From an uncultured Bacteroidales bacterium (GTDB lineage Bacteria > Bacteroidota > Bacteroidia > Bacteroidales > Paludibacteraceae), in the NCBI GenBank assembly GCA_903927945.1, contig CAIYOZ010000123.1, positions 1 through 38,466 of the forward strand: a stretch of 38,466 nucleotides of DNA, written 5' to 3'. Positions within the stretch are counted from its first letter, which is position 1. The number at the start of each line of letters is the position of its first letter. Under the pieces are notes generated by a model. The model ran no database searches and was not told the DNA's origin. It saw only the letters and a list, made by a program, of their open reading frames with translations. Both the position numbers and the translations under genes were made by a program. Below are positions 205 through 34,722 of the stretch, piece after piece.

Positions 205-434
205 ATGTTCCGACTCTGTTTTATGAATCTTAATATCTTTTTCAATCTGAATTTGATGCATTATACTTCATAAAACTACTGAATTTTCATCTTAATTCCT
301 TAAATGCTCCTTTTTTGATTTTACAGTTCAATACAAAAGAGCCTGGAACGCTACTTAATGAACTTATTTTCTTTCTTTCTATGCTTTATTCAATCATCCT
401 TCCACCGTACCTTGCTCTACATCCGGCCTATATT

Positions 435-542
435 CCGATGGTATTCGGAGAGTCTTTGGAGGGAGTTGCCAGGGGGTTCGAAGGGTCACATCCCTCGGAA
501 CACCCTAGCAACACCCTAGCAACCCCCTAGCAACCCCCTCGG
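435..542. repeat. 11-bp-periodic inverted repeat, copy 1
   Basis: The left half is G-rich and runs in 11-bp steps (units start at 435, 446, 457, 468, 479). The right half consists of C-rich 11-bp units: aacaccctagc at 499-509 and 510-520, aaccccctagc at 521-531, aaccccctcgg at 532-542. The halves are complementary: 465-485 pairs with 492-512 at 17 of 21 positions around a 6-nt loop. A second copy of the same design lies at 32861-32979. A start-to-stop reading frame across it is repeat-driven and not taken as a gene. Confidence 0.85.
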
Positions 543-852
543 AACTAAAGACAAAATACCTCGATTGTAAGAGCAACGGAAACAGGAAATACGACCTTCA
601 AATGCAGAGGAAATGTCACTAAATGATCGGGAATGACTTTATAGATTTATTCTATCGCGGTATATAAATTACAGTCATCTAATTTACGATAAGTTAATAA
701 AAATATGGAGCTTCATAGTATCTATTTGAAAATATGAATTTTAGCCAAAGGGTAGCTGTTGTTTTACTGAAAATTTTCAGAGAGGAAAACTGTCGACTGC
801 GCTTAAAAATCCATTCATTTACAAATTTATGATTATTTCAAAAATATAATTG
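543..852. other. Gene-free stretch upstream of marR
   Basis: About 310 bases of AT-rich sequence in which I see no convincing gene, RNA or repeat before the marR promoter. Confidence 0.5.
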
Positions 853-904: not shown

Positions 905-1345
905 ATGGAAAATCAGAAAATATCTTTTGGAATGTCAGTGGGTGGTATGATGCGCGAGGTGGTTCAAATACTCAAGAAGCGGTTTGCGGATCATGCCGAC
1001 ATACAGCTCACCATGGAACAAATCGGGTTGTTGCTGATCATTTACACCAGCCAGGACGAGGTCATCCAGCAGGAATTGGCATGCACCATGGGAAAGGATA
1101 AATCGGCCATTTTGCGCACAATTGATGTTATAGAACATAAGGAACTCATAAAAAGGGTGTCGGACACCCAGGACAGGCGTAAAAAATACCTGATGATAAC
1201 CAAAAAAGGGGAACGGGTAGTGGATCAATACAAGGAAATAGAGTTGGAATTGATCACCGTGCTTCAACAAGGGTTAAGCGCAGAAGAGATAGCTACTTTT
1301 TATAAGGTGGCGAATCATATTAAAACAAATGCAAGGGCATTGTAA
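905..1345 (+). CDS. MarR-family transcriptional regulator
   Basis: A 146-residue protein of MarR size with a winged helix-turn-helix over roughly residues 35-105. The wing is at 87-102 and carries the family's D-x-x-D-R-R pattern (DTQDRRKKYLMITKKG). MarR proteins bind palindromic DNA as dimers and are usually released by small ligands. An in-frame TTG at 881 would add 8 residues, but it lies inside the -7 box, so ATG 905 is preferred. The next genes on the strand encode TolC, a membrane-fusion protein and an RND pump; this order is common for a pump and its repressor. TTGA-N5-TCAA sites occur upstream (853-865) and just downstream (1363-1375), suggesting autoregulation and possible control of the pump genes. 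The ligand cannot be inferred. Confidence 0.88.
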   Translation: MENQKISFGMSVGGMMREVVQILKKRFADHADIQLTMEQIGLLLIIYTSQDEVIQQELACTMGKDKSAILRTIDVIEHKELIKRVSDTQDRRKKYLMITKKGERVVDQYKEIELELITVLQQGLSAEEIATFYKVANHIKTNARAL

Positions 1346-30642: not shown

Positions 30643-31506
30643 TTATTTCTTTTCCAGTTCCATTTCTACTCTACCCAGGTACATGCCGCTCTTCGCCATC
30701 TGAGCAATCACCACCGGTTTTCCCAACGCATTCTTCACGTTGGTGTTCATGATCATACTATGGGTATGGCCTCCTATGATCACATCGATATATTTAGTCG
30801 CATGGGCAATCGCAAAATCATTCACCACCTGTTTCGTAGAATCCGATCCTAAATGCGACAGACAGACAATCACATCACACTTTTCTTTCTTTTTCAGCAA
30901 GGTGGATATTTCAATCGCTTTTTCCACAGGGTTTTCATAAACCACTCCCTTGTAATGGCTTTCAATGATCAGGCTCTTCGGGTTTACATCCAGGGCCATA
31001 ATCCCAATGCGTAAACCACCACGCATGATGATCACATATGGTTTCAACACATCTTTCAATGGAGTATTTCCCACCTCATAGTTTGAGCTCACCACGTTAA
31101 ACCGTGCGTTTTTCAATATCACAGCCAACGTATCCACCCCATTGTCAAATTCATGATTCCCAAGTGTGACTGCATCATATTTCATGCGGTTCATGCCATC
31201 GACCTCCACCCTTCCGTTGAAGAAATTAAAGTAAGGTGTGCCTTGTGAGAAATCACCTGCATCCAACAGCAACACATTCTTTTCCTTAGCCCTAATTTGC
31301 TCAATGACTCCCATCCTGCGGGCATAACCACCCATATCCGAAGTCCTGAGTATGGATTTTTCCGTGGGCTCAATCTGACTGTGCGTATCGTTGGTATGCA
31401 GTATCACCAGTTTGATCTTTTCCTGAGCCACCACCGTCACTGCCGAAATCATCAACAATACAACTAATAACCCCAAGCCCCTAAAGGGGATATATATTAC
31501 CTTCAT
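30643..31506 (-). CDS. 5'-nucleotidase-type metallophosphatase, catalytic domain only
   Basis: 287 residues. A signal peptide (LGLLVVLLMISAVTVVA-Q) precedes a calcineurin-like metallophosphoesterase domain with all five metal blocks: HTNDTHSQIEP, LLDAGDFSQG, TLGNHEFDNG, IVCLSHLGSDS and IGGHTHSM. This equals the N-terminal domain of UshA-like 5'-nucleotidases, which hydrolyse nucleotides in the periplasm. The substrate-binding C-terminal domain is a separate gene upstream (32611-31859), as in other Bacteroidota. The codons for the first residues after the start lie on a GC-rich palindrome (31471-31490). Confidence 0.92.
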   Translation of the reverse strand: MKVIYIPFRGLGLLVVLLMISAVTVVAQEKIKLVILHTNDTHSQIEPTEKSILRTSDMGGYARRMGVIEQIRAKEKNVLLLDAGDFSQGTPYFNFFNGRVEVDGMNRMKYDAVTLGNHEFDNGVDTLAVILKNARFNVVSSNYEVGNTPLKDVLKPYVIIMRGGLRIGIMALDVNPKSLIIESHYKGVVYENPVEKAIEISTLLKKKEKCDVIVCLSHLGSDSTKQVVNDFAIAHATKYIDVIIGGHTHSMIMNTNVKNALGKPVVIAQMAKSGMYLGRVEMELEKK

Positions 31507-31858: not shown

Positions 31859-32611
31859 TCACTGCCTGCTTATTCGTCCGTCCAATGTTGCCTGAATCAA
31901 TTTCCCTTTTTTTGTTTCATTCTTGATGTAATCAATCAATACACTTCTTATTTTCAATCCTGTATTCGTCCTTTTCTCGTACTGTCCCAGTTGCACCATG
32001 TTGTCATTCCCACCGGCACAGTAATCGTTGGTGGCTACGCTGTACAGTTTTGCAGGATCAATCGGCAATCCGCCGATGGTCACCTCTTCCGCCTTTTTAT
32101 TTCGTATCACCATGCGAAGTCCCGACTCCCCTTCCCCACCAACCCGGGCAAAAAACTGTGCTAATTCTATCAACTTATCACCCCGTATCCAAAGTATGAC
32201 CAGTTCATTTTCAAAAGGCATCAGTTCGAACACCTTCCCGATCGTTATGTTACCCGCCGGTATTACCGTACGCAGCCCGCCCAGGTTTACGACCGACATA
32301 TCAACCGGTTTTCCCAGAAATGCCGTAGCAGCTTCACGGTACACATCGGCGTTAAAGTTGGACAGCAGGCTCTCGGGGGCATGTCCTTTCATGGTCACAG
32401 CTGCCCGACCGATCACCACATTCATTTGGGCATCAATCTTTTGCTTCACCGGCAGCAGGTAAGCCTCATAATCCTTGTCCGCCAATGATTCCGTAGTGCT
32501 GTCGATGGCTATCTTACCGGATGTGGCTTTCGTGATCACCCAGGTTTTATGACTACAGGAAGTGACTGAAAGCACTAATAATGAAAGGATGAAAAGATTC
32601 TTAAACTTCAT
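31859..32611 (-). CDS. 5'-nucleotidase C-terminal-domain lipoprotein
   Basis: 250 residues from the ATG at 32611; a start 24 nt further upstream is possible but would push back the signal peptide. MKFKNLFILSLLVLSVTSC is a lipoprotein signal with C19 in the lipobox. The body is the 5_nucleotid_C domain: ESLLSNFNADVYREAA, NLGGLRTVIPAGNITIGKVFELMPFENELVIL and YSVATNDYCAGGNDNM, the parts that bind the nucleoside base. The catalytic metallophosphatase domain is the next gene downstream (31506-30643). The two probably act together at the membrane, with the spacer between them carrying a nested inverted repeat. Confidence 0.9.
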   Translation of the reverse strand: MKFKNLFILSLLVLSVTSCSHKTWVITKATSGKIAIDSTTESLADKDYEAYLLPVKQKIDAQMNVVIGRAAVTMKGHAPESLLSNFNADVYREAATAFLGKPVDMSVVNLGGLRTVIPAGNITIGKVFELMPFENELVILWIRGDKLIELAQFFARVGGEGESGLRMVIRNKKAEEVTIGGLPIDPAKLYSVATNDYCAGGNDNMVQLGQYEKRTNTGLKIRSVLIDYIKNETKKGKLIQATLDGRISRQ

Positions 32612-32860
32612 ATAGCATGAATAAGGGATAATCAACTCTGAAAAACAACACGAAAGTACTGAAAATTAATTAATACACAAAGGTGAGAAGACAAGCATTT
32701 ACAGGCTCAATGAATCATGGCTTTTCTCAACCGGCACAATGTGCTACTGAACTATTGCCAGACCACCATTGAATCAGGAACTAAAAAATATGTTTATTAA
32801 AAGGAGGTGACAGGTTCATTCTGCTTTCGTCCGGACCTTGACATACCTTCCTCTGAGATA

Positions 32861-32979
32861 CAAAGGGGCATCCGAGGGTCATTCGAGGGACTTCTGAGGG
32901 GGTTGAGAGGGTTTCATCCCTAGGAACACCCTAGCAACACCCTAGCAACACCCTAGCAACCCCCTAGCAATCCCCTCGG
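32861..32979. repeat. 11-bp-periodic inverted repeat, copy 2
   Basis: The G-rich half has 11-bp units at 32861, 32872, 32883, 32894 and 32905 (for example ctgagggggtt). The C-rich half has aacaccctagc at 32925, 32936 and 32947, aaccccctagc at 32958 and aatcccctcgg at 32969. The halves are complementary and can form a long imperfect hairpin. The design equals copy 1 (435-542), with one more C-rich unit. It lies in the divergent gap between the 5'-nucleotidase unit and tyrS. Confidence 0.88.
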
Positions 32980-33177
32980 AATATAAGACTAATTCCATTC
33001 AGATGGAGAACGAATTCCAGAGAAGGGAACTCATAAAATCGTAGTTTAGAGAAAGCCGTAACCCCATTAAAAAAAAGTACATGCACCTGACTTGACAAAG
33101 AAGAGATTGCGGGTGATTCAAAAAAAAGACTTAAGAGGATATTTACCCCAAAGCGGTCACATCTCTGTCTTTAAGTT

Positions 33178-33260: not shown

Positions 33261-34553
33261 ATGAATTTTATTGAAGAATTGCAGTGGAGGGGAATGATCC
33301 ATACCATGATGCCCGGCACCGGGGAACAACTGGCAAAAGAAATGACATCAGCCTATGTGGGCATCGACCCGACGGCTGATTCACTGCATATTGGCCATCT
33401 GGTGAGTGTGATGATGCTCAAGCATTTCCAACGGGCAGGGCACAAACCCATCGCGTTGGTGGGCGGGGCAACCGGAATGATCGGCGATCCCTCCGGGAAA
33501 TCGGCGGAACGCAATTTGCTGGATGAGGCTGCACTGCGACATAATCAGGATTGCATACAGGCCCAGTTGGAAAAATTCCTTGACTTTACCAGCGACAAGC
33601 CCAATGCGGCCGAGATGGTGAATAACTATGATTGGATGAAGGGATATTCTTTCCTCAATTTTATCCGGGACATCGGGAAGCACATCACCGTGAATTACAT
33701 GATGGCGAAAGAATCAGTAAAAAAACGATTGAGCAGTGAATCGAATGTAGGCATGTCATTTACCGAGTTTTCATACCAGCTGTTACAAGGCTTTGACTTT
33801 TTGCATTTATATCAGGAGAAGGGCTGCAAACTGCAAATGGGAGGCTCTGACCAATGGGGAAACATTACCACCGGCACAGAACTGATACGCCGAAAGACGG
33901 GCGGTGAAGCTTTTGCCCTGGTATGTCCGTTGATCACGAAGGCTGATGGCGGTAAATTTGGTAAGACCGAGAGCGGAAATGTGTGGTTAGATCGCAGGTA
34001 CACCTCCCCTTACAAATTCTACCAGTTCTGGTTGAACGTGAGCGATGCCGATGCAGAAAAATACATCAAGATCTTTACCGCCATTGGCCAGGAAGAGATT
34101 GGTGCATTGGTAACCGAACACACATTGGCTCCTCACCTGCGTATCCTGCAGAAAAGGCTGGCCCAGGAAGTCACCGTCATGGTGCACTCCGAAGCGGACT
34201 ACCAGGCAGCTGTGGAAGCCTCGGGCATATTGTTTGGAAATGCCACCTCGGAAGCGTTGAAGAAACTTGACGAAGAAACCCTGCTGGCAGTGTTTGATGG
34301 GGTGCCTCAATTCCAGATTTCAAAGGAAATCCTTCAAGGAGGAGTCAAAGCGATAGACCTATTGACCGAGAATGCAGCTGTATTCCCTTCAAAAGGCGAG
34401 ATGCGCAAGCTGGTTCAGTCGGGAGGGGTGAGCCTGAACAAAGAAAAACTCGAAAACCAGGACGAAATACTTGACAGCACTATCCTTCTGAACAACAAAT
34501 ATTTATTGGTACAGAAGGGTAAAAAGAACTACTACTTATTAACGGCGGAATAG
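33261..34553 (+). CDS. tyrS: Tyrosine--tRNA ligase
   Basis: 430 residues from ATG 33261, which gives the family start [21 protein letters not shown]. Earlier in-frame starts at 33207 and 33216 lie in the promoter or at the transcription start. The class I HIGH motif is DSLHIGHLV (H43), the KMSKS equivalent KFGKT is at 232-236, and [26 protein letters not shown] is the tyrosine-binding region. A C-terminal S4 RNA-binding domain contains [18 protein letters not shown]. It charges tRNA-Tyr in the cytosol. Single-gene unit, followed by the tRNA-Gln gene. Confidence 0.97.
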
Positions 34554-34651: not shown

Positions 34652-34722
34652 TGTCTCATGGTGTAATGGTAGCACTGCAGTTTTTGGTTCTGCCTGACCA
34701 AGTTCGAGTCTTGGTGAGACAA
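34652..34722 (+). tRNA. tRNA-Gln (anticodon UUG)
   Basis: The acceptor stem TGTCTCA (34652-34658) pairs with TGAGACA (34715-34721), with A34722 as discriminator. The D-loop contains AATGGTA. The anticodon loop has TTG at 34684-34686 after T34683, and the T-arm is CCAAG-TTCGAGT-CTTGG. CCA is not encoded. The stem pair just below the anticodon loop is a T-T mismatch (34681 with 34689). It is followed directly by a terminator. Confidence 0.93.

Follow-up and report, generated by a model that had tools for sequence, protein, structure and literature searches.

What are the 11-bp-phased palindromes that lie in the intergenic spacers of an uncultured Bacteroidales bacterium, and are the two copies noticed in one contig an isolated pair or members of a class? 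The window, that is, the whole stretch of 38,466 nucleotides analysed here, contains two such copies, W1 and W2, at a distance of 32.4 kb. Genomes are labelled G, contigs C and loci L, G000 being the genome to which the window belongs. The features needed for the argument are the following.

384..593, no strand: W1, whole element; dyad at 488/489, arms of about 105 bp; the extent is the class average
492..546, no strand: W1 right inner zone, five C-rich 11-bp units at a spacing of 11
905..1345, plus strand: MarR-like regulator, right neighbour of W1 (MarR-family NCBIfam models, all matches below the curated cut-offs)
31859..32635, minus strand: 5'-nucleotidase C-terminal-domain protein, left neighbour of W2 (PF02872)
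32805..33020, no strand: W2, whole element; dyad at 32914/32915, arms of about 105 bp; the extent is the class average and does not derive from W2 alone
32865..32908, no strand: W2 left inner zone, four G-rich 11-bp units, GGGGCATCCGA, GGGTCATTCGA, GGGACTTCTGA and GGGGGTTGAGA, read from the sequence
32909..32920, no strand: W2 centre, GGG-N6-CCC, likewise read from the sequence
32918..32983, no strand: W2 right inner zone, six C-rich 11-bp units, CCCTAGGAACA to CCCTCGGAATA, at a spacing of 11
33261..34553, plus strand: tyrS (tyrosine--tRNA ligase), right neighbour of W2 (TIGR00234)

The two copies in the window

The units on both arms of W2 keep an exact 11-bp phase about the GGG-N6-CCC centre, and a centre of this type is also found in most of the printed family members. 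The first-pass annotation had counted five G-rich and five C-rich units at 32861-32979; the phased arrays on both arms are indeed there, and the numbers are four and six. Its second copy of the same design is W1, at about 435-546 with the five C-rich units at 492-546, and both copies run on, as it had noticed, into the matching outer flank GGAA..AAGAC. The complementarity of the arms is weaker than the roughly 50 bp that it described, the arms matching in register over 35 bp at only 57% (W2) and 66% (W1). An inverted-repeat search returned one 29-nt pair at 76% for W2 and reported no inverted pair for W1. The lag-11 palindrome score (within ±35 bp) is 1.32 for W1 and 1.30 for W2, against 1.09 for the next best place in the window and 0.94-1.00 for the best place in each of three single-base shuffles of the window. 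RNA folding of 32800-33030, the W2 region, was slightly better than that of shuffles (z -1.5), and an Rfam search of the window at the gathering score gave no match except a tRNA at 34652-34722; this tRNA gene lies on the plus strand, shortly after tyrS. The nucleotidase to the left of W2 is apparently split into two adjacent minus-strand genes, a metallophosphatase-like N-terminal part (30643-31506) and the C-terminal domain (31859-32635), and homologues of both also stand to the left of the element in G007 L064.

Copies in the genome, the genus and beyond

The dispersed non-coding element suggested at first reading is borne out: besides the two copies in the window, many further loci, mostly intergenic, occur in the own genome and its relatives, with the 11-bp phase retained there as well. 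In the own genome, 64 matches to a 20-base pattern built on the C-rich units (three mismatches allowed) fall at 18 loci, the reversed control giving one match; a G-side pattern added three loci (in C414, C377 and C392), which brings the CCCTAGCAAC family to 21 loci in this genome. Two further places, L028 and L029, matched the short pattern spuriously and were left out. A 26-base pattern (up to three mismatches) matched five of 60 genomes (G000, G005, G007, G022 and G014), and in 31 of 35 congeners there was no match to the CCCTAGCAAC-type pattern. The single match in G014 (L069, contig C105) was rejected as an element, being a C-rich 11-bp direct array with no mirrored arm; in a congener otherwise devoid of elements by pattern, this array is possibly a relic or a one-armed form.

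A pattern that demands mirrored 11-bp units matched five of the 48 genomes of the genus, at 21 places in G000, 39 in G005, 11 in G007 and one each in G022 and G001; the place in G001 is unlike an element and resembles chance, and the reversed control matched once in each of four genomes. Most congeners are apparently without elements, so that a function, whatever it is, would not be required across the genus. Among 295 genomes drawn for the order (the sole congener being G000 itself), only G000 and G172, the latter with one chance-like site, matched, and the control also matched two. Viral contigs held no exact match to a closely related structural pattern, and plasmids no match to the two elements searched.

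A contig scan with a mirrored GG/CC pattern returned 61 stretches: 29 from Paludibacter STB_57, one from Bacteroidales bin-1918, 12 from Sphingobacterium, six from Pedobacter, one each from Chitinophaga and Epilithonimonas, four from Cloacimonadota, in which the arms look shorter, and seven chance-like stretches that were set aside (L072, L088, L100, L107, L111, L119 and L126). The units are TTAGTAGGGGG-like in Sphingobacterium, TTGNTAGGGCG-like in Pedobacter and TTTGGTAGGTG in Chitinophaga; the scan demands GG/CC at fixed places, and other unit types in other genera would be missed by it.

Detection without a sequence model

The detector used here takes no consensus; it combines palindromy over ±40 bp with autocorrelation in both arms at lags of 6 to 20. 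Contigs C1-C40 of G000 (248,701 bases, taken by contig number) gave four hits at lag 11 and zero to two at each other lag, and all four elements belong to families that the first pattern had missed (units TTATATAGGGT, TTACATAGATG, found twice, and GGATAACCCAA). Contig C77 of G005 (384,951 bases) gave 15 hits at lag 11, of which 14 were judged real by eye, and contig C81 (362,819 bases) gave 13, all judged real, with zero to seven at other lags; the hits of both contigs comprise GGG-type and other families. Lags 9 and 18 were also raised in C77 (11 and 8 hits), the printed hits being mostly a separate 9-bp direct repeat of CAACTTAAT type. One further convincing C77 element, at 324633, appeared at a lower threshold. 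Together, C77 and C81 hold 28 elements of all families in 748 kb, or about one per 27 kb. Such densities are lower bounds, because not every known element is detected: the threshold applied here recovered 14 of the 19 known G000 loci besides the two of the window and 30 of the 32 known G005 loci, and the lower threshold 17 of 19 and 31 of 32.

When mirror symmetry replaced palindromy as a control, lag 11 gave three hits in C77 (other lags 0-24) and seven in C81 (other lags 1-9), that is, no lag-11 peak in the former and none standing out in the latter. The congener G332 gave no lag-11 element in 124 kb, and among congeners other than G000, G005 and G007 a single weak lag-11 hit came from 54 loci (180 kb). 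Two candidates, C77:5091 and L114:2904, are AT-rich background and were dropped from the pairing and architecture sets, though they still stand in the 93-element autocorrelation set below; C3:71785 passes the detector and was dropped by eye as an unrelated palindrome.

A second dispersed class is present in the spacers of G000 and G005, namely non-palindromic direct arrays of CAACTTAAT- or CAATTAACC-like repeats, about 8-9 bp in period. They were located in the flanks of L012, L013, L021 and L026 and in C77 near 379206, 87338 and 284364, and further direct repeats of GGTTTGAAAGG type stand beside G005 elements in the flanks of L053 and L044.

Spacing and gene context

The detected elements keep apart along the two long contigs of G005. 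The smallest of the 25 gaps among the 27 elements of C77 and C81 measures 11,584 bp, and the coefficient of variation (CV) of the gaps is 0.50. A minimum gap as large was reached in none of 100,000 uniform placements and in none of 20,000 length-weighted intergenic placements, the median minimum of the latter being 1.7 kb; for the CV, P = 0.00015 (uniform) and 0.0001 (intergenic). Adding the element at 324633 splits one C77 gap into 23.6 and 24.3 kb. The sample is two long contigs of one genome, G005. All eight checked places found by pattern in C77 and C81 were also detected, a check that has no equivalent for the AT-rich families, and missed elements, especially AT-rich ones, could shorten the gaps. 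Contig C3 (140 kb) has three elements, one found only at the lower threshold, with gaps of 62.4 and 45.1 kb; these agree with predictions fixed beforehand (none below 10 kb; near multiples of 15.3 kb), although two gaps prove nothing. A 15-kb spacing period was discarded, since with the period left free P is 0.54 under a hard-core null and 0.12 under a gamma null; the P values for a fixed period are post hoc and were not used.

W2 sits between divergent units, as the first-pass annotation stated, with the nucleotidase-like gene running leftward and tyrS rightward. Across elements this is a tendency and not a rule. The 67 detected elements of G000 and G005 include seven at contig edges and nine within short predicted ORFs (91-131 codons); the other 51 lie in 25 divergent, 20 tandem and six convergent spacers, one of the tandem cases being C77:5091, later dropped as background. 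By the length of spacers above 300 bp, the expected divergent, tandem and convergent shares are 36, 53 and 10% in G005 C77 and 20, 51 and 29% in G000 C1-C40.

The same sites with different units in sister species

Orthologous intergenic regions were compared upstream of tyrS and of marR, and at both sites G000, G005 and G007 carry elements with differing units. A tyrS match was found in 44 of 48 genomes, and 30 tyrS loci were examined, the upstream letters being read for nine of them (L252 has only 58 bp upstream). Among the 30, the lag-11 detector at its lower threshold was positive upstream of tyrS in G000 and G005; in G007 the element there was recognized by pattern and scores below that threshold. 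The units upstream of tyrS are CCCTAGCAACA in G000 and AATAATCCATA in G005, which are mutually unrelated. In a tree of the 30 TyrRS proteins, G000, G005 and G007 form a clade with a support of 0.90. Upstream of marR, L283-L286 showed no element and L287 a background-level score of 1.0.

Further cases, which like those above are selected examples, come from the comparison of flanking proteins, by which W1 pairs with G005 L040, W2 with G007 L064, L015 with L042 and L023 with L048. L019 and G005 L045 share both neighbours, panC and a starch/glycogen-synthase-like protein, and the units differ; several sites beside genes for DUF6266 proteins pair with G005 L046 and C77:31443. At several shared sites, then, the geometry is conserved while the unit sequence differs.

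These positions bear on the mobile palindrome that the first-pass annotation had offered as one choice. Selfish MITE-like palindromes, moved in trans by some transposase, would read the minimum spacing as target immunity and the conserved sites as old insertions. In favour of this are the many copies in a few species while most sisters gave no match, the dispersed families whose members resemble one another within a genome, and a hard-core spacing of the kind that immunity would give. However, sister species carry unrelated families at one and the same site, which a single insertion does not account for; several positions are conserved between species, and neither viral contigs (exact structural pattern) nor plasmids (two elements) gave a match. 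Y1_Tnp, the sole transposase family searched, does not track the elements, being present in 40 of 48 congeners, 36 of which have no element by the structural pattern (the chance-like match of G001 uncounted). We therefore regard selfish mobility as unlikely; it would be an unusual kind of selfishness as well, with unrelated families at one site in sister species.

Anatomy and folding

Members of the class are intergenic and symmetric about a dyad; each arm extends about 105 bp and is made of two zones of 11-bp units with a period of 11.0 bp, about five units in the inner zone and about four to five in the outer. Averaged over 93 elements, of which two were afterwards taken for background, the within-arm autocorrelation falls from 0.56 at lag 11 through 0.49 at lag 22 and 0.43 at lag 33 to 0.37 at lag 44, against 0.34 at lag 10 and 0.33 at lag 12. 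Followed outward from the dyad, the lag-11 similarity stays high through blocks 0-3 and has its minimum among the first six blocks at block 4 or 5; at blocks 5-6 it is roughly level or rises again, and by blocks 8-9 it has fallen to background. Profiles were drawn for 29 elements of G000, 45 of G005, six of G007 and 19 of other genera (including Chitinophaga and Epilithonimonas); the dip is clearest in the other genera, where 0.33 is followed by 0.39 and 0.38; in G000 it is slight (0.42, then 0.45), and in G005 it is a shoulder without a rise (0.45, 0.44). The outer zone (blocks 5 and beyond) is independent evidence, because selection used at most ±40 bp.

Identity between the arms stays above background to about 100 bp from the dyad, being only about 0.35-0.48 in the outer zone. 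Pairing (91 elements) falls to about 0.5 past about 28 bp from the dyad, except at the phased positions 33-34 and 44-45 and at 37 and 48. This pattern is as expected for contacts made once per turn, and not for a selected hairpin.

Nevertheless many elements fold well as hairpins, which would admit a role as a cruciform or as RNA. Over 106 elements (16 shuffles each) the median z of RNA folding is -4.7 and 75% have z below -3, and the AT-rich copy upstream of tyrS in G005 (L251) is a near-perfect long hairpin with z -9.2; these z-scores are partly circular, since palindromy over ±40 bp was itself the criterion by which most elements had been chosen. As cruciform-forming supercoil sinks, the palindromes would be extruded where the DNA is underwound, a state that the 11 bp per turn would reflect. 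The folds just given are what such sinks call for. Against them stand, besides the circularity, the z of W2 and the low identity of the outer zones, and pairing alone needs no repeat of 11-bp units, so that we find this quite unlikely.

The units within one arm are often near identical, and their number is variable. The zones recombine: the element of L166 has close to full-length counterparts at five other places of the own genome (82-87%), and its inner zone alone is shared by many more places (43 matches in all, counting both strands and itself). In pairwise blastn between elements, the alignments end at varying distances. Neighbouring elements show a weak tendency to come from different families (P = 0.025 by mean shared 9-mers, P = 0.16 by counted pairs). 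Homogenised units of variable number are also what functionless minisatellites would show, if slipped replication together with template switching in hairpins yielded homogenised palindromic arrays. A mutational process would, however, hardly fix 11 bp across unrelated families in several genera, and a shared two-zone length and a minimum spacing are hardly to be expected from it; such an origin is very unlikely.

Structured RNA is the least likely of all: a turn of A-form RNA takes 11 bp, and long structured transcripts would suit both the 11.0-bp period and the stable folds of many copies, yet the window matches no Rfam family except tRNA, divergent, tandem and convergent spacers are all occupied, and G-T mismatches do not exceed A-C ones (425 against 480 in total, 91 elements), so that a pure RNA-hairpin explanation fits poorly. 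A per-element excess would allow for strand bias, and such a strand test was overdispersed (chi-square 187 for 91); it is confounded by the repeated units and was not used.

Rotational phase of AT and GC relative to the dyad was measured in 108 elements. In the inner zone R = 0.45; most GGG-type elements fall around 300-350 degrees, several AT-rich families around 100-130 degrees, and some families are nearly half a turn apart. A phase common to all families, which had been suggested early, was withdrawn on this analysis.

Spaced docking sites as the preferred reading

Geometry and several sites are kept, sequence is not, and the sites stand apart; this combination fits an assembly site at the level of DNA that is read mainly through helical spacing and symmetry. 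We tentatively prefer, as a real possibility that falls somewhat short of an even chance, to see the elements as spaced docking sites for a multimeric complex that wraps or bridges DNA. A symmetric multimeric protein complex would assemble outward from the dyad, with one subunit or contact per helical turn of the element, and by wrapping or bridging the DNA it would mark or pin chromosome (supercoil) domains. Slippage of units and exchange between copies would alter the unit sequence while spacing and symmetry persist. Candidate binders are a gyrase-type topoisomerase, a nucleoid protein peculiar to the lineage, or several paralogues that each recognize one kind of unit. The idea of a phased protein-binding site, put forward at first reading from the window, would agree with this, and the geometry shared by unrelated sequence families is beyond what the window alone could show.

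Several results count against docking: the differing AT/GC phases, because one wrapping protein that reads the AT/GC phase should give one phase; the near-identical units within an arm, because a purely geometric reader would not need them; the good hairpin folds of many elements; the apparent lack of elements in most congeners; and, for the spacing, the sample of two contigs of one genome, the incomplete detection and the mere three elements in 140 kb of C3. The wider proposition, that Bacteroidota have chromosomal sites encoded by geometry rather than sequence, with units swapped wholesale and sites at least about 11 kb apart, anchoring chromosome or supercoil domains, is more doubtful.

Comparison with known repeats

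According to PMC6379681, the gyrase motif of E. coli obtained by Topo-Seq is symmetric, 130 bp long and very degenerate, with a GC period of 10.75 bp; the same paper describes DNA wrapping and a possible indirect readout at gyrase sites, and the strong gyrase site of phage Mu (SGS), which sets the prophage as a separate topological domain. This symmetric, 10.75-bp-phased motif is the nearest known design, and by analogy gyrase might bind the elements. Dyad symmetry and a helically phased composition are common to both, for the elements near the dyad by the detector's criteria and independently beyond ±40 bp. Unlike the strong gyrase sites, the elements are about 210 bp long with a unit period of 11.0 and strong sequence repetition, are periodic close to the dyad, have a second zone, and do not share a single rotational AT/GC phase.

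PMC3733652 and PMC12306157 give repetitive extragenic palindromes (REPs) as 20-40 bp long and built on one shared consensus, two large super-families bearing a GTAG or CGTC tag; according to PMC6379681, gyrase binds the BIMEs. REPs and BIMEs are, like the elements, dispersed, intergenic, palindromic and multi-copy; the elements differ in being about 210 bp long, built of 11-bp units and divided into several unrelated families. An assignment to REP/RAYT systems fails on length (arms of about 105 bp against 20-40 bp) and on the single consensus, and Y1_Tnp does not follow the elements. On plasmid R1, the iterons of parC are 11 bp long and stand in two blocks of about five each, and ParR assembles on them as a protein superhelix. 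These iterons are direct repeats; arrays of 11-bp iterons are shared with the elements, whereas the blocks of the elements are inverted, chromosomal, many per genome and unrelated in sequence, and the genes named beside the elements are other than parM and parR.

Among the papers listed by searches of the open-access (PMC) literature, none was seen to describe such 11-bp-phased palindromes, most subscription papers being outside that scope. The bacterial interspersed repeats compared here are all defined by a consensus, and a class that keeps only period, symmetry, length and spacing would escape the usual motif and repeat searches. If the docking reading is true, the elements would provide a sequence-independent yet computable map of the positions of a chromosome-organising complex, and helical phasing as a chromosomal address would become directly testable.

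DUF6266 genes beside the elements

DUF6266 (PF19781), a family of unknown function, has 17 matches in G000 (L131-L147), several of them close together, and a lag-11 palindrome lies upstream in six of these 17 loci, one of them weak (L131, score 1.15); some of the loci overlap. Related DUF6266 paralogues within G000 retain the element site with different units. As a partner of the elements the family was rejected, since its copy number over 48 congeners does not follow them (17 in G000, 10 in G005 and three in G007; 10 in G023 and nine in G018). Two DUF6266 proteins that were scanned had no PHROGs or NCBIfam match. In L018, 3'-end remnants of DUF6266 genes are found at offsets from the element (turned) of -1540 to -1470 and -2353 to -2284. 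One of these remnants adjoins a dispersed hairpin-like sequence containing CGCGATATGGAAATCGCG, which is also present in L010 (offset 263-292).
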